A stretch of 64,000 nucleotides of DNA, taken from the NCBI GenBank assembly GCA_944324645.1, contig CALUXB010000002.1:186001-250000 (forward strand), in the 5' to 3' direction. A program made the position numbers and the translations under genes. This stretch comes from an uncultured Elusimicrobiales bacterium (lineage in GTDB: Bacteria; Elusimicrobiota; Elusimicrobia; Elusimicrobiales; Elusimicrobiaceae). Position 1 is the stretch's first letter, and each line of letters begins with the position of its first letter. Below are positions 37,214 to 50,151 of this stretch, piece after piece. The notes beneath the pieces are model-generated. The model was not told the DNA's origin and ran no database searches. It saw only the letters and a program-made list of their open reading frames with translations.

Positions 37214-37807
37214 TTAAGAGTCGGCTTTACCGTCCGGCATCGTACCGGGCGTATATACATCTGCATTGAGAAAGTCAATACACAAAGCTTCCGCTTCTGC
37301 ATTAGAGGTGGCACCTTCCCCTACGGCAGTAGCATTGCAGCGGACTTCAGGTTTGCCGTCGTTCTGGGGCTCATAAAAGCGGCCCAGACGGTACTCGCCA
37401 AACTGCTTGTTGCCTTTGCGCGTAGCTATCACACCAGCACCATTGCCGGGCTTAGAATCGGTGCCTAGCAATTGCACCTCAAACCCGTTGCCGCAGACCG
37501 CACCCGTGCCATTGCTTCCTTTGCTAGCTACTTTGGTGCAGAAAGTGGACTTATTCACTAAAGCAGTACCCTCTGCCACACCAGCGGGGGCCACGTCCAA
37601 TCCTACCCAAGTGGAGGAATAACCAGACCCGTGGCGCAATTTATAGCGCTGCTGCGCCTGCACCACATTGCCCATCAAGATTTCCACTTCGCTCAGTCTA
37701 GAGCGTTCCACCGCGCGGAAATACGCGGGCAGCGCCATAGCAGCCAAGATGCCGATAATCAGCACCACGACCAACAATTCAATTAAAGTAAAACCCTTCT
37801 TATGCAT
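37214..37807 (-). CDS. Type IV pilin-like protein P4 (second subfamily)
   Basis: 197 residues. The leader is short (MHKKG), then FTLIELLVVVLIIGILAAMA and FRAVERSRLSEVEILMGNVV. It differs from P1-P3 and P6-P8 in leader, a Gly-rich variable domain, and the end ALCIDFLNADVY instead of the Cys-loop CKSLGG end. It is very close to P5, 11 bases upstream. An AAGGAG SD is present, so this pair is not leaderless. Possibly an abundant structural pilin; inference. Confidence 0.9.
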   Translation of the reverse strand: MHKKGFTLIELLVVVLIIGILAAMALPAYFRAVERSRLSEVEILMGNVVQAQQRYKLRHGSGYSSTWVGLDVAPAGVAEGTALVNKSTFCTKVASKGSNGTGAVCGNGFEVQLLGTDSKPGNGAGVIATRKGNKQFGEYRLGRFYEPQNDGKPEVRCNATAVGEGATSNAEAEALCIDFLNADVYTPGTMPDGKADS

Positions 37808-37818
37808 ATTTTTCTCCT

Positions 37819-38400
37819 TTAATCTACATCCGTAGTAGAAGCAGCATTTTCTTTCTTGCAGTCGCCATAGTTATTCGTACCCACTGCACAACCCGGGTCC
37901 ACATATTCGTCGCCATTCATAAAATCAACGCATAAGGCCTCAGAAGCTGCATTAGCGCCTTTACAGAAGGTAAAATTAGTCGGGTCTTCGTAAAAGCGAA
38001 ATACGGAATAGCCGCCAAACTGGTCATTGTTCACGCGGGTAGCCGTAACCCCTGCTTTATTATCCGGGGCATCCGTAATAGCAGAAAGAGTAACCATAAA
38101 ACCGTTACCGCAATTAGTTGCTGCAGTTTGGCCCGGAGCCTTGGTGCAAAAAACGGCATCCGCCGTGGCCCCGCTGGGGGCTACATCCAAAGCTTTCCAG
38201 TTGGTAGCGTATTTATTGGTGCGCAATTTGAAACGCTGTTGGGCCTGTACCACGTTGCCCATCAGAATTTCCGCTTCACTAATGCGGGAGCGTTCTACCG
38301 CGCGGAAATACGCGGGCAGCGCCATAGCGGCCAAAATGCCGATAATCAGCACCACGACCAACAACTCAATCAAGGTAAAACCTTGTTTTTTATTCATCAT
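37819..38400 (-). CDS. Type IV pilin-like protein P5 (second subfamily)
   Basis: 193 residues. MMNKKQG precedes FTLIELLVVVLIIGILAAMA. Helix FRAVERSRISEAEILMGNVV, QQRFKLRTNKYATNWKALDV and the end ALCVDFMNGDEY match P4 closely. GAGGAG precedes the ATG. The T12 pilin promoter lies about 90 bases upstream at 38493..38520, here with an ordinary leader, which shows that the module works as promoter rather than only as leader-coding sequence. First gene of the P5-P4 operon, a local duplication. Confidence 0.9.
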   Translation of the reverse strand: MMNKKQGFTLIELLVVVLIIGILAAMALPAYFRAVERSRISEAEILMGNVVQAQQRFKLRTNKYATNWKALDVAPSGATADAVFCTKAPGQTAATNCGNGFMVTLSAITDAPDNKAGVTATRVNNDQFGGYSVFRFYEDPTNFTFCKGANAASEALCVDFMNGDEYVDPGCAVGTNNYGDCKKENAASTTDVD

Positions 38401-40603: not shown

Positions 40604-40633
40604 AAAAAAGCCCCGCCTATTAAGCGGGGCTTT
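40604..40633 (-). terminator. Terminator of the giant membrane protein gene
   Basis: AAAGCCCCGC / GCGGGGCTTT with a U-run on the minus strand. Confidence 0.85.
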
Positions 40634-40643
40634 AAAAACAAAC

Positions 40644-43600
40644 TTACTGAGCTAAGCCAGGTGCCGGTGAGTGCGCCGCCAAATTGGCCTGTATATCCGT
40701 CAAGGAAGGCAGCGGATGCGCCAACAGGCTTTCCTTTTTCTCCTCTGAAACAATATCTGCCTGTTCCCGTTCTCTGGCCGCTTCTTCAATATCTTTCTGA
40801 TGTTCTTGGTAACGTTTGATTTTGAAATCAAAACGTCCGTAGCGACCCTCTTCCCGTTCTTCTTGGAAAGAGTTAATCAGTGGGAGCGGGTTAAAAGAGG
40901 CCGGGCCATCCACCACAAACTTAGCAGCACCCCAGGTCCGCACCAGCTGCGGCAAAGAGGTCTTAATACCCAAGCTGCCGGAAGCAAACGCAAAACTTAA
41001 GGCTAAGGAACCCAGCGGAATCCAAATAGAAGAGAGGGGGCCTTTGCCATCGCTGACGCCCTGCGCTACTTCCCGGTCCACATAAGAGCTTTGCACCAAA
41101 GGCACCGCCGCTAACCCCAGCTGAGACCAAGAGAAGCCCGTCATCGTGATATCTTTTAATTCTTTGGCACGCTGCGCAGCGACCGCCGGAGGAAGCCCTT
41201 TTACCAGCTGGGTAACCGCTTTGCCCGAGCCAATTTTAATATTGGCCAGTTTCTGCAGCGACTGGGTTACGTTAGCAGTACCCAAGCCCATCAAAGCAAT
41301 ACCTAATAACATATCCCTTGCGCTGGGGTCAGAAGACATACCATATTTCATCAACAACAAACCACCTGTTGCGTTCATCGCATAAGACAGCGCTAACATC
41401 GTTTTATATTCAACGGCCGGTTTAAGCGGGTTAGAGAACGATTTAAGCAGTTTCGGAGCAAAGAAGCGCGCCGTGAACGGTAACGCCGCCACGGAAAGCC
41501 CCGTCAACATAGCAATTAAGTTGCTGCGGTTGCCCGGCACAGAGTTTTTTACAAACTCGCGGCTTTCATAGAACGGACGGAACGACTGGCTGGAAGCTTT
41601 ACTAAATGCAGCAGCCTCAAAACCTGTAAAGAAAAACGCCGCAACAGACAAGGGCAATACGTCCCAATCTCCCATTGTTTTCCAAGAGCGTGCCATTTCG
41701 CGCCAGAAATGCGTTTTTTGCCCCGCGTTCACCGCAGCGGAACGACCAATATACGGCGAGATGCGCGCACTTGTTAAATAGCCCAACACCGCCAGAGTTC
41801 CCAGGGTTAATACCGGGAAGGCAGCGGAAAAATCTGTGCTCGGCTTGGCAAGCTCTTCTTTAGAAAGAGTCTTGCCCGTTATTTTGGGAGCGGCGGACAG
41901 TTTGATTGCTGTATAAATCCAGGACGGAGCCAAGAGCACCACAGAGCCTAAGTTCTTAAACATCATACTCTGCAGCAGGCTGCCGCCGCCGCCCATTGTA
42001 TCAATCAAAATATTCAGGCCGGAGCGGCTTAATGCAGAAGAAACACCAATAGCCGCGCCCGATATAAACAGCGGCCAAATTGGCGGCAGATGAGCTTTAT
42101 CCAGCTGGCCATTAAAGCCCATAGCCCACGTAAAGGCCAAACCGCCGGCTACTGTGGCCAAGGCTGTCTGCACAACACGCAACGCACCAAAACGCATCAC
42201 AAGAGGAGCCAAAGAAGGAGCCAACATAGAAGGCAAATACGGAAAGGCCAAAGAAATCAAGGTTTTATCCGTATCTGTAATCCGGTCTTTATACGTAGTT
42301 TCTAATGGAGCAATCAACCCCACGGAAGCAGAGCTTAAGCTCAAACCCGTAGAAATATACAGAGGCAATATTTTCTTGCGGCCGGTGTTAACCGTCAGAC
42401 GCAGAGGCTCTGCAAGGGGTGCATTAGAAGCTACCTTTACAAACGGATTTAACTGCCGTTTGGGCAAGCTGAAATAGAACAATTTATCATTGACCAGTTT
42501 ATCGCCTTGGAACAAACGCAGCTGATTATCCGTACCTAATACAAAACGACTGCCGTTTAATTTCAAACGGGTGTCTGCCATAACTTCTAACGGCACCACC
42601 ACACTTTCCCCATTGGCAGCTTCTAAATAAACGGGGATTTTTTGAGAAAATACTTTAGTTTGGGGCCGGCTGTTAGCCAGCAGATTTCCTAACCTGTTAG
42701 ATCTAACTTTAGTTCCTGTCCGAGCTATCTCGCCATTGATTTCCAATGCACGTTGGAAAGCTTTGGCGTTTTGATACACATTCAGTTTCAATGTCAACGG
42801 TTCAGCCAGGCCAGCCTCCATCGTTCCACGGACCAAGTTGGGCATACCAGCAGTGGGAACCACCAATTTAAAGCGGCTTAAATCTACCGGCTTGCCTATA
42901 CCATCAGACATCCCCAAGAAATAAGTGCCGTTTCTCTGCGTCAGCATTACCCGCTGATAGCGGTTTGCTTCCACGCCTTTAACGCCCAAATCTACTCTAA
43001 ACTCAATGGGCAGCATTTTATCTGCGCCTTGTGGGTCAAACAACGCACTTTTGAGCGTCTTATACGAAAGTTTCGGAGCATTATATTCCCGGCCGGCATA
43101 ACGGCCGATATTAGCCGGAATGCTGATATTTTTATTCAACCGGATAGAAGAAGCCAACGAAGCCAGCACTTTTTCTTTCGTAAGAGGATTGAAAGAAGCC
43201 ATTATACTTTCGTTCTCTCTTAAGCCCATCAAGCTGTTGGCTAACAAATCATTATATGTGGATTTATTTTGTGCAAACAGCGTGTTGCCCAATCGGCTCC
43301 AGAAGCCGCGGTTCACATAAGCTAAACCGGCATTTTCCTGAGCCAAGTCTAACGCTTGTTTGATTTCCAAACGGCCCTGAGAAGTAGTTCCGTCCAAAAG
43401 CGGCCCCACGATGCGGCGCACTGCCGTTGGATCCACCACCCCTTTTTTGCTGATTAATGGGGTACTCTTCAAATCATATACTTTTTGCGGAACAACGATA
43501 GAGGGATCTTTGCGGATTTTGGCTGCAAAATCAAACACGCGGGCCTTATCTTCTTGGCGCATAAATCCTAAGCCCTGCTCGCGAATTTCATTAGCCAGGT

Positions 43601-45923
43601 TTTGGCGGTAGCGGAAATCGCGGTCACCCACAATACGGCGGATCCAGCCGCGCTGGCTGGCGAACCGAACATTGGTTTTTTCTGTCGCCGTATTAAGAGC
43701 TTGCTGCAAACCATTAATGGATTTAGAGATGCTTGCATTATCACCTAAAGCAGAAGAAATGCTCTTCGCATCCAGTGCAAATGCCCCCGTTTCTGCGGAA
43801 AACTTAGCAGTACCTAATGCCGCCTCAGCAAAAGTCGGAACAGAAATTCCGTGCGGAGCTTTTACCAGCGGCTCAACCTGAGTAAATTGAGGCAACAAGC
43901 CCTGTACAGAACCCGCTATTCCCCCTTTAATACGCGCCGGCAAACGGCGGTTGATTTTGGTTAAAGCACGGGCGGCTTTCATTCTCCATAAGACCGACAC
44001 GCGGGAAGCCGTTGCCACGCCGCTGCGGGCCATTTTAGTGGTTATATACACAGCTCGTCCCAAATTGACCGCTTTTACCCCCAGCGAAACTACATCAAAA
44101 GCCAATCTGACCAATATCGCAATATCGGCCACCGTGCCGACTATCAACCACACCTTTCCTCGGTGTTGCCGACGTTGTTTCGCTTTATATTCTTCGCTGC
44201 CTATATCATAAGACAGCAGGCGGGAAGATTCTTTTATATTTTGCTGTCCGTTAGTACTTTCATTAAAGAAAGTAAAAAGTTTATGGTCCAAAAACCATTG
44301 GTTATTGGCATCCAAATCCCCCATATCACGCAAATATAAATTGCGTACGATAGCCTCCGGAATGCTTAAGCCAATAGAATCGGCGTAGGCATTCATTTGA
44401 TCAACATTGTTTTTTTGCAAATACCGCCCGCGGGCTGCTGTTTCTTCAGAAATGTAATGGGTGCCATACTGATCCATTACATAGCCCGTTTCCGTATTAA
44501 TATCTTTCGGTCCGGTATATTTGCCGCTCTTACCGCTCAAAAGAGCACCCACCAAAAATGGATACATCGCGCGGCAAGTAATGCCTACTTCGTTTTTAAA
44601 ACTCACCTTTGGATAGACCGTGCACAAATTAATACCATAATCAGTCAAAAGCTCTATGGCCGGAGCGCTGCCATCCTCTGCCAGCATATAGGCTATTTCT
44701 TCCCAGGCATTGCCCGCAGGGCTATTGCCCAGAGCCTTTACCCCTTCTGGGAAAGAAACCGGATATTGGGCCCATTTGGACGATTCACCCAAATATTGCC
44801 CGTTCATCATAATAAAGCTATTTACGATACCGGTAAAAGAGATGATGTCCAGGGCCCGGTCCCCTTCTTTGCGGGTGGCAGTTTCCAACAGCCCGCGCAC
44901 CGCGCCGTAATTCTTCATAGCCAACAAAGAGCTTACCCCGGAAATTAAGGCTGGCACGGTAAAGGAAGATTGTAAGTGCGCTTCAATAAATTCACTTATG
45001 GCAGCAGAATCTACAGAAGAGTTGCCCAAAATCCCCAAAGCGCTTAACCCCTGCAACGCGTTGGAACAATTATCCGGCTGTGTTTCACATTTTGTGCCGT
45101 TTTTTACATCTTTCAAATATAATTGATGCAACAGTTCTTTTTCTTGTTCAGAGAACAGAGTGGTATTTTTCCCCTCCGTCATTAACACAATCAAACCGAT
45201 TTCTAATAAATAAGGTTTGGCTTTAATCGGATTTTGATGATACAACTCCATCAATCTATCAATTTTATCCGCTATTATTTTGTGCCACTCTGCTTCCAGT
45301 GCAGACTGCATCTTTTGGTATTGATTTTCTGCTTCTTTAACAGCTTTAGCTTGCCAAGCATCAATTTTTGCTTCTGTAGCTGTTACTAACTGTTGGATTT
45401 TTGCATTCTCCGTTTCCAACCAAGTTTTTACTACTCTGTCAGAAACATCCGCCTTTTTGGCCTCCGCCAATTCTGTTTCAATCAAATCCCGCTGTTGCTG
45501 CTCCAACTTCTTCAGCTCTTCACGGGCAGCACGCGCTTGGCCTTCCACTTCTGCATAATATTCAGACAAAAACTGGGCGTGTTCATCTTTAGGCTCTTGT
45601 TTTTCTTCTGGGATCAAATCCGGGGGCAAAAAAGTAGCACGTAACTCCATTAATTCCTGGACAAGGGGGTCATTAAAATGTTCCGTCAGTTCTTTTTCAG
45701 CCACGGCCATAGCGGGCGTCCGAATATTGGTACTTTCACGTATAAAAGTTTGTTCGGCTTGTTTTTGGTAGGCTCTTTCAAAAGAAGCCACTCTTGCTCT
45801 GTCTTTAGCAGAAAGCGCCTGAGCCAAGGCTGGGGAAGATACATTTATTAATAAGGTAATACAAAGAAAAGAAGAAATGAGTTGTTTCAACAGATTTAAA
45901 ACTTCCGAATATTTCGGATGCAT
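40644..45923 (-). CDS. Giant secreted/MFS-like membrane protein of unknown function
   Basis: 1759 residues from ATG 45923 (AGAGAGG upstream). A signal peptide is followed by a charged coiled coil (about residues 90-230, EELKKLEQQQRDLIETELAE). A helical HEAT-like region with paired cysteines follows (about 240-540), with hydrophobic segments near 600-640 (WLIVGTVADIAILVRLAFDV). A mixed region runs from 700 to 1170. From about 1180 to 1690 roughly twelve hydrophobic segments resemble a major-facilitator fold (ILPLYISTGLSLSSASVGLI), and the tail is charged. No known family recognised. Fusion of a large exported part to a transporter-like module is unusual. Monocistronic. Confidence 0.8.
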   Translation of the reverse strand: MHPKYSEVLNLLKQLISSFLCITLLINVSSPALAQALSAKDRARVASFERAYQKQAEQTFIRESTNIRTPAMAVAEKELTEHFNDPLVQELMELRATFLPPDLIPEEKQEPKDEHAQFLSEYYAEVEGQARAAREELKKLEQQQRDLIETELAEAKKADVSDRVVKTWLETENAKIQQLVTATEAKIDAWQAKAVKEAENQYQKMQSALEAEWHKIIADKIDRLMELYHQNPIKAKPYLLEIGLIVLMTEGKNTTLFSEQEKELLHQLYLKDVKNGTKCETQPDNCSNALQGLSALGILGNSSVDSAAISEFIEAHLQSSFTVPALISGVSSLLAMKNYGAVRGLLETATRKEGDRALDIISFTGIVNSFIMMNGQYLGESSKWAQYPVSFPEGVKALGNSPAGNAWEEIAYMLAEDGSAPAIELLTDYGINLCTVYPKVSFKNEVGITCRAMYPFLVGALLSGKSGKYTGPKDINTETGYVMDQYGTHYISEETAARGRYLQKNNVDQMNAYADSIGLSIPEAIVRNLYLRDMGDLDANNQWFLDHKLFTFFNESTNGQQNIKESSRLLSYDIGSEEYKAKQRRQHRGKVWLIVGTVADIAILVRLAFDVVSLGVKAVNLGRAVYITTKMARSGVATASRVSVLWRMKAARALTKINRRLPARIKGGIAGSVQGLLPQFTQVEPLVKAPHGISVPTFAEAALGTAKFSAETGAFALDAKSISSALGDNASISKSINGLQQALNTATEKTNVRFASQRGWIRRIVGDRDFRYRQNLANEIREQGLGFMRQEDKARVFDFAAKIRKDPSIVVPQKVYDLKSTPLISKKGVVDPTAVRRIVGPLLDGTTSQGRLEIKQALDLAQENAGLAYVNRGFWSRLGNTLFAQNKSTYNDLLANSLMGLRENESIMASFNPLTKEKVLASLASSIRLNKNISIPANIGRYAGREYNAPKLSYKTLKSALFDPQGADKMLPIEFRVDLGVKGVEANRYQRVMLTQRNGTYFLGMSDGIGKPVDLSRFKLVVPTAGMPNLVRGTMEAGLAEPLTLKLNVYQNAKAFQRALEINGEIARTGTKVRSNRLGNLLANSRPQTKVFSQKIPVYLEAANGESVVVPLEVMADTRLKLNGSRFVLGTDNQLRLFQGDKLVNDKLFYFSLPKRQLNPFVKVASNAPLAEPLRLTVNTGRKKILPLYISTGLSLSSASVGLIAPLETTYKDRITDTDKTLISLAFPYLPSMLAPSLAPLVMRFGALRVVQTALATVAGGLAFTWAMGFNGQLDKAHLPPIWPLFISGAAIGVSSALSRSGLNILIDTMGGGGSLLQSMMFKNLGSVVLLAPSWIYTAIKLSAAPKITGKTLSKEELAKPSTDFSAAFPVLTLGTLAVLGYLTSARISPYIGRSAAVNAGQKTHFWREMARSWKTMGDWDVLPLSVAAFFFTGFEAAAFSKASSQSFRPFYESREFVKNSVPGNRSNLIAMLTGLSVAALPFTARFFAPKLLKSFSNPLKPAVEYKTMLALSYAMNATGGLLLMKYGMSSDPSARDMLLGIALMGLGTANVTQSLQKLANIKIGSGKAVTQLVKGLPPAVAAQRAKELKDITMTGFSWSQLGLAAVPLVQSSYVDREVAQGVSDGKGPLSSIWIPLGSLALSFAFASGSLGIKTSLPQLVRTWGAAKFVVDGPASFNPLPLINSFQEEREEGRYGRFDFKIKRYQEHQKDIEEAAREREQADIVSEEKKESLLAHPLPSLTDIQANLAAHSPAPGLAQ

Positions 45924-46069
45924 AAAAAACCTCTCTGACGGCAGAATAAAAATCCGCTCCCGTAAAAGCAAGCGACTTCTTTTTTTATTATTTCATCTTC
46001 TGTCTTTTTGCACAAGGGCCAAAAGGCCTAAAAAAAACTTAGGCCCCTACTGGGCCAAAATGAAAATGA

Positions 46070-49634: not shown

Positions 49635-50132
49635 TTATTTTTCCATACAATATCGGTCCCAATTTCCTTGAGACCCCACACTTCCATTCTCATACAAATT
49701 ACCATACCCTGCACAAAAAGTCTTAGCTTTCGCACTATCAGGCCGTGCATTGCACACTTTTTTACAGACCGTGGAATTAGGGAACCACTGCAAATAAATG
49801 GGTTCATACAGCAAGGTGCATCCTTGGCTTGTACACTCATATAAGGAACCTTGAAACTCCGGCAATTGTAAATCCAAAGCTTCTAACGTAGTATCAAAAG
49901 AACCATTGCTCATATAGTAAATTTTTTCCGCCTTAATCAAGGCATCAAAACCAACCAAAGCTTGCACAGCCTTGCTTTGAAATACGGCTTTTTCATATTG
50001 CGGCAAGGCAATAGCTGCCAAAATGCCGATAATCAACACGACTACCAAAAGTTCAATAAGCGTAAAACCGCCAAATTTGCGTTTTACGCGGTTTTTTACT
50101 GCTGGGTTCTGTTTTTGATAAATTTTGCTCAT
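49635..50132 (-). CDS. Type IV pilin-like protein P6
   Basis: 165 residues from ATG 50132. Leader MSKIYQKQNPAVKNRVKRKF plus GG, then FTLIELLVVVLIIGILAAIA and QYEKAVFQSKAVQAL. The variable domain has YYMSNGSFDTTLEALDL and ends CNARPDSAKAKTFCAGYGN, a diverged Cys-loop end. The first 40 or so residues equal those of P7. Leaderless start six bases after TAAATT, without SD. It ends 3 bases after the convergent ruvC stop. Confidence 0.88.
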   Translation of the reverse strand: MSKIYQKQNPAVKNRVKRKFGGFTLIELLVVVLIIGILAAIALPQYEKAVFQSKAVQALVGFDALIKAEKIYYMSNGSFDTTLEALDLQLPEFQGSLYECTSQGCTLLYEPIYLQWFPNSTVCKKVCNARPDSAKAKTFCAGYGNLYENGSVGSQGNWDRYCMEK

Positions 50133-50151
50133 ACGCAAAATTTATCAAAAA
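50112..50151. repeat. Palindrome centred on the P6 start codon
   Basis: 17-base arms TTTTTGATAAATTTTGC / GCAAAATTTATCAAAAA around TCATAC, which includes the start codon. An identical copy lies at 50898-50937 for P7. Confidence 0.88.

Follow-up and report, generated by a model that had tools for sequence, protein, structure and literature searches.

Transporters of the major facilitator superfamily (MFS) are usually compact. The Pfam family MFS_1 and the folds of SV2A, NupG, PepTSt and Spns2 in the PDB are built from twelve transmembrane (TM) helices arranged as six plus six, with a charge bias that places both termini inside. In one mycobacterial case, the MFS protein Rv1410 works with a separate periplasmic lipid carrier, LprG (PMC10576003). 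In the present study we analyzed a stretch of 64,000 nucleotides (the window) from an uncultured Elusimicrobiales bacterium (assembly GCA_944324645.1, contig CALUXB010000002.1, positions 186,001 to 250,000), in which an intact open reading frame with an ATG start (40644-45923, minus strand) encodes a protein of 1759 residues, here called P0001. P0001 resembles the above proteins in its 12-TM, six-plus-six fold and in its charge bias, but it differs from them in an N-terminal extension of about 1180 residues that begins with a signal peptide. An arm of about 555 exported residues behind a signal peptide would be an unusual coupling of the periplasm to an inner-membrane permease in one chain.

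A sequence-only reading of the window had described P0001 as the fusion of an MFS-like module with a large exported region, and had placed this architecture in no known family. Our results agree with this description: the signal peptide, the arm and the MFS fold were all recovered, and no family in Pfam or NCBIfam spans the chain. That is, P0001 matched no NCBIfam model and only sub-threshold models of coiled-coil type in Pfam, its relatives matched nothing there beyond generic MFS, no confident full-length match to a characterised family was found in either database, and sequence profiles of the PDB gave no relative. P0001 is filed as an MFS-fold protein of new architecture, whose N-terminal module (N-module) fits no known family tested. 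We think that P0001 is an inner-membrane MFS secondary transporter with a built-in exported arm for capture or docking; the activity is predicted, and we give this explanation a probability of roughly 0.45.

The C-terminal MFS module

The mean hydropathy of the family showed twelve hydrophobic segments in the C-terminal module, where about twelve had been expected from the sequence alone. The AlphaFold model of residues 995-1759 had a mean pLDDT of 80 and a pTM of 0.75, and a Foldseek search with the C-terminal model gave 279 matches with E of 0.001 or lower (best 3.4e-7, probability 1.0, TMt about 0.6) and placed the model among MFS structures. Of 36 relatives, 11 matched MFS_1 in Pfam (best E 2.8e-12), and P0001 itself had no Pfam MFS match. 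On the predicted structure, the C-terminal half is confirmed as a real MFS fold, with twelve TM helices in two six-helix halves. The loops placed in the cytosol carried a mean net charge of +14.6, compared to -4.8 for the other loops, and the difference had the same sign in all 36 relatives. By this computed charge bias, the MFS core is N-in/C-in, that is, both of its termini are predicted to be cytosolic.

Four charged positions in the TM helices were kept throughout the family. R1300 (TM4), K1323 (TM5) and R1486 (TM8) were invariant in 36/36 relatives, and position 1436 (TM7) was Glu or Asp in all of them. An acidic residue in TM7 (E1436 in P0001) and a basic residue in TM4 are shared, together with the MFS fold, with the proton-coupled peptide transporters (POT/PTR). 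The TM1 motif of the POT proteins is ExxERFxYY; it is absent from TM1 of P0001 (GLSLSSASVGLIAPLE). The identity of P0001 to known MFS proteins was 11-16%, and no subfamily could be assigned.

The module is also the slowest part of the protein. The identity to the close orthologues was 70-82% in the MFS module, compared to 51-57% in the solenoid-like region and 42-49% in residues 36-219. Against three orthologues of 57-66% identity, the ratio of nonsynonymous to synonymous substitution rates (dN/dS) was 0.10-0.16 for the whole gene and 0.07-0.14 for the MFS part, values read at a dS near saturation. From these comparisons we judge that P0001 is under purifying selection overall. A frameshift, an artefact or an accidental reading frame is ruled out by dN/dS and by the orthologues in several genomes.

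The exported N-module and the membrane topology

The signal peptide proposed earlier was recovered in P0001 and its relatives from hydropathy and an AxA-type site, and it was the strongest hydrophobic segment in the N-terminal region of the family. In the place of the coiled coil proposed behind it, residues 114-230 were predicted, mostly with high confidence, to form long helices. Hits to Remorin_C, RapA_C and apolipoprotein models on this coiled-coil-like stretch were rejected, being sub-threshold and looking compositional. Residues 259-556 were predicted, again mostly with high confidence, to form mainly helix pairs in a solenoid-like arrangement. The top Foldseek matches of this region were alpha-solenoids (AP2 adaptin, importins and CRM1), all with E of at least 0.01; that is, no PDB fold matched significantly (best E 0.01, none below 0.001), and P0001 had no HEAT match in Pfam. 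The arm thus shares stacked helix pairs with the HEAT/ARM solenoids, but it differs from them in being exported and in carrying cysteine pairs. Of the HEAT-like region with cysteines in the sequence-only reading, the helix pairs and the four cysteines stand, whereas the name HEAT is only loosely supported.

Mature P0001 has exactly four cysteines (279, 286, 434 and 450), all in the solenoid-like region. Among 42 relatives, all four were present in 28, only the second pair in three, only the first pair in two and none of the four in five; three showed a shifted or unpaired pattern lacking the first cysteine, and one row was incomplete. Thus, 279/286 and 434/450 were each present as both or neither in all but three of the 42 rows. 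The number of cysteines in the exported region was even in 36/40 relatives, and residues 611-1181 were free of cysteine in 38/40. The pairwise gain and loss, together with the near absence of cysteine from residues 611-1181, fits disulfides outside the cytoplasm. We infer that two disulfides lock the exported solenoid.

Since residues 36-590 would lie outside and the N-terminus of the MFS module inside, the number of membrane crossings between them should be odd, and the only strong hydrophobic segment in this interval is 591-609. A single crossing there would reconcile the outside arm with about 580 inside residues and the MFS core. The net charge at residues 611-660 was +20 per 100 residues. 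The part between the arm and the MFS core, which had been described as a mixed region, was resolved into a helical linker and two conserved beta-alpha domains. The second domain may be a duplicate of the first (hhalign E 6.5e-4, at a probability of just 27%). The features of P0001 and its gene are listed in Table 1.

Table 1. Features of P0001 and of its gene, with positions in the window
Feature	Residues	Window positions	Strand	Basis
Shine-Dalgarno-like GAGAGG		45930..45935	-	6 nt 5' of the ATG, read in the sequence
Putative signal peptide, PALA/QA	1-35	45819..45923	-	Hydropathy 1.75 at 15-33 (family mean); hydrophobic N-terminus in aligned relatives
Long helices, coiled-coil-like, fast evolving	36-219	45267..45818	-	Structure model, orthologue identity
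Exported alpha-solenoid-like core of the N-module, two cysteine pairs (predicted)	220-590	44154..45266	-	Structure model, Foldseek, cysteine pattern
Cysteine pair C279-C286 (CETQPDNC)	279-286	45066..45089	-	Gained or lost as a pair across 42 relatives
Cysteine pair C434-C450	434-450	44574..44624	-	Gained or lost as a pair across 42 relatives
Lone hydrophobic segment, nearly invariant D600; putative crossing	591-609	44097..44153	-	Family hydropathy; crossing from the topology of both sides
Basic, then helical linker, probably cytosolic	610-944	43092..44096	-	Charge, cysteine absence, helices
Beta-alpha domain 1	945-1052	42768..43091	-	Structure model, hhalign
Beta-alpha domain 2, LPK motif	1085-1182	42378..42671	-	Structure model; possible duplicate of domain 1
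12-TM MFS module	1183-1660	40944..42377	-	Hydropathy, AlphaFold, Foldseek, family charges
Poorly conserved tail, cytosolic by topology	1661-1759	40647..40943	-	Orthologue comparison
Intrinsic terminator, 12-bp stem and T run		40607..40633	-	Directly 3' of the stop codon

Proposed action of P0001

The features described above can be combined as follows. The N-terminus of P0001 would be exported by Sec and the signal peptide removed. Residues 36-590 would then fold outside the inner membrane as a helical solenoid locked by the two disulfides, and helix 591-609 would cross the membrane. The following residues, ending in the two beta-alpha domains, would lie in the cytosol, followed by the MFS core of twelve helices, whose N- and C-termini would both be on the cytosolic side. 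The solenoid may bind or dock a substrate or an envelope partner at the mouth of the transporter, and the substrate may be handed to the MFS core or taken from it. The transport would probably be ion-coupled via the intramembrane charges R1300/K1323/E1436/R1486. Rv1410 and LprG offer a possible functional analogy, in that an MFS core has an extracytoplasmic partner; LprG, however, is a separate lipoprotein, whereas P0001 carries its alpha-solenoid arm within the transporter chain itself, and we claim no sequence relation.

Distribution and reuse of the modules

The genus of P0001 contained three full-length orthologues and a fourth one divided between two contigs. More divergent homologues there had 19-33% identity. 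Among 90 genera of the phylum, only three had matches to the profiles of the N-module (residues 220-640) and the C-module (1165-1700), and these three belong to the Elusimicrobiaceae. Phyla beyond Elusimicrobiota were covered by two motif scans, and the scan over GTDB contigs found only this group, which was Elusimicrobiaceae or Elusimicrobiales where named. The named relatives were metagenome-assembled genomes of these taxa, several of them from rumen and rectum. With broader profiles, 45 of 52 Elusimicrobiaceae genomes that were at least 90% complete had the C-module and 34 had the N-module; neither was found in the three remaining Elusimicrobiaceae genera, each represented by a single genome. 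Homologues were thus found in three gut genera only, as the suggestion of a lineage-specific envelope machine would have it; the label "envelope machine" is plausible. The genomes of these genera are about 1.1-1.8 Mb in size, and one relative is a single contig of 1,643,562 bp, which is probably Elusimicrobium minutum Pei191; E. minutum has a homologue of 1721 residues. Both the N-module and the beta-domain/MFS module are widespread in the three genera. Because the N-module reaches around ten matches per genome (up to 11), it is likely to be important to this poorly understood lineage.

In the genome of P0001 (1.51 Mb, nine contigs), searches for paralogues showed that the N-module also heads three other proteins. 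The first, of 2163 residues (L032:9554-16042, plus strand, contig C1 of genome G000), has two caspase-like regions (HGG...CFSG and GHS...NCQAG). The second, of 1095 residues (L128:3087-6371, plus strand), has one such region (HG...GSCYSG) and a weak match to Peptidase_C13 (E 0.0085). In the third, of 961 residues (L153:2774-5656, minus strand), no C-terminal domain was recognised. The caspase-like domain had no match in the PDB, and its assignment is a weak one at the level of motifs. Further proteins with the beta-domain/MFS module were also found. Across 34 relatives, the identities of the N-module and the MFS module co-varied (Mantel r 0.86). Such co-variation agrees with an old, stable fusion that was passed on as one unit, and by itself leaves a functional coupling unproven.

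We tentatively suggest that P0001 belongs to a lineage-specific, receptor-like set, in which an exported, disulfide-locked alpha-solenoid with its anchor is joined like a cassette to MFS, caspase-like, trypsin-like or TPR modules. If this is true, sensing at the envelope would be joined to transport or proteolysis in single chains of 1000-5000 residues.

Several related proteins were observed besides. By eye, the C-terminus of the 2163-residue protein is response-regulator-like. Two beta-domain/MFS proteins (L151:1-2958 and L152:4005-8192) are truncated where contigs C1 and C8 of the same genome end; their starts are near-identical (VLPASLAKALFPLGAFNQAFVSPAAI), which suggests that a repeated gene segment broke the assembly. 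In the probable E. minutum, a protein of 3965 residues (L131:2266-14160, plus strand) combines a signal peptide and two MFS-like regions with several domains of trypsin type (Trypsin_2, E 2.5e-15), which by eye have Cys at the nucleophile position (GFCGSP). Genus g12 has a mosaic of at least 4956 residues that joins the N-module to trypsin-like domains, TPR and unknown domains that are repeated (L129:5032-19899), a protein of at least 3875 residues that matches response regulator, TPR, ankyrin and MFS models (L132:2-11626), and tandem N-module/MFS pairs (L114, L115 and L116), one copy having a single cysteine pair and the other none.

The open frame of one giant relative of the N-module had 5077 residues. 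Elusimicrobiota are described as enriched in proteins of more than 5000 residues without COG assignment, and the passages of that survey available to us name no such family or architecture (PMC11573180). The P0001 family may be a handle on part of this enrichment. The searches made for literature on the family found nothing.

Weighing of the explanations

The transporter explanation is supported by the intramembrane charges and by the MFS module being the most conserved part. The Foldseek and MFS_1 matches, the charge bias of the loops, the cysteine pattern, the co-variation of the two modules and the precedent of Rv1410 and LprG also speak for it. Anatomy and topology have good computational backing, whereas transport activity, ion coupling and substrate capture are predictions. 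The following points weigh against it. The N-module heads proteins without MFS, so that transport as such is not its task, and the beta-domain/MFS module occurs in proteins without a detected N-module. Shared ancestry alone could yield the co-variation of the two modules. No clue to a substrate or an operon was found among the gene neighbours. Segment 591-609 has a basic flank on either side, the C-terminal one being longer and stronger; charge alone leaves the orientation undecided, and it therefore rests on the two neighbouring domains. Finally, motif A (G-x-x-x-D-R-x-G-R-R, loop 2-3) reads APLVMRFGALRVV in P0001 and APFVKRxGA in the family consensus, in which the Arg and the Gly are kept and the usual Asp is absent. 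Many divergent MFS proteins also lack motif A, so the missing Asp bars claims on the subfamily but not the MFS fold.

The strongest alternative, which we consider rather unlikely, is that the signal peptide, the four-cysteine solenoid and the TM segment form a general exported sensor, and that the beta-domains and MFS act as a transceptor, favouring signalling over bulk transport. The N-module with its hydrophobic anchor, heading the 2163- and 1095-residue proteins with their caspase-like H-G and C-x-S/A-G motifs, would suit such a role, as would the trypsin-like or TPR modules of relatives and the number of N-module matches per genome. However, conservation is highest in the MFS part rather than in the arm, the intramembrane charges of the MFS part are kept, and no signalling domain was recognised between the two. 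A more doubtful view is that the N-module is only a tether, which holds various machines of the inner membrane or cytosol to an envelope structure (peptidoglycan or the outer membrane) and has no ligand role. Its presence on unrelated C-terminal modules and the fast divergence of the arm agree with this, and the predicted helical rod of residues 114-230 could, with the solenoid, span the periplasm, but no known peptidoglycan- or outer-membrane-binding domain was found in Pfam or NCBIfam. It is very improbable that a degenerate MFS serves only as a membrane scaffold, as the lack of a Pfam MFS match in P0001 and of the motif A Asp might suggest, because the low dN/dS of the MFS part and the four charged positions, which a scaffold would not obviously need, speak against it.

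The gene and its neighbours

The gene upstream of P0001 is divergent and the stop codon is followed at once by the terminator stem, so that P0001 is monocistronic, as had been proposed. Next to it are genes resembling those for cation efflux and for CCA/poly(A) polymerase, together with a small hypothetical gene; the conservation of these neighbours does not go beyond local synteny. Elsewhere in the window there are three type IV pilin-like genes (37214-37807; 37819-38400, minus strand; 49635-50138, minus strand), two of them in tandem; their products share almost the same N-terminus (GFTLIELLVVVLIIGILAA) and diverge in the rest of the chain.
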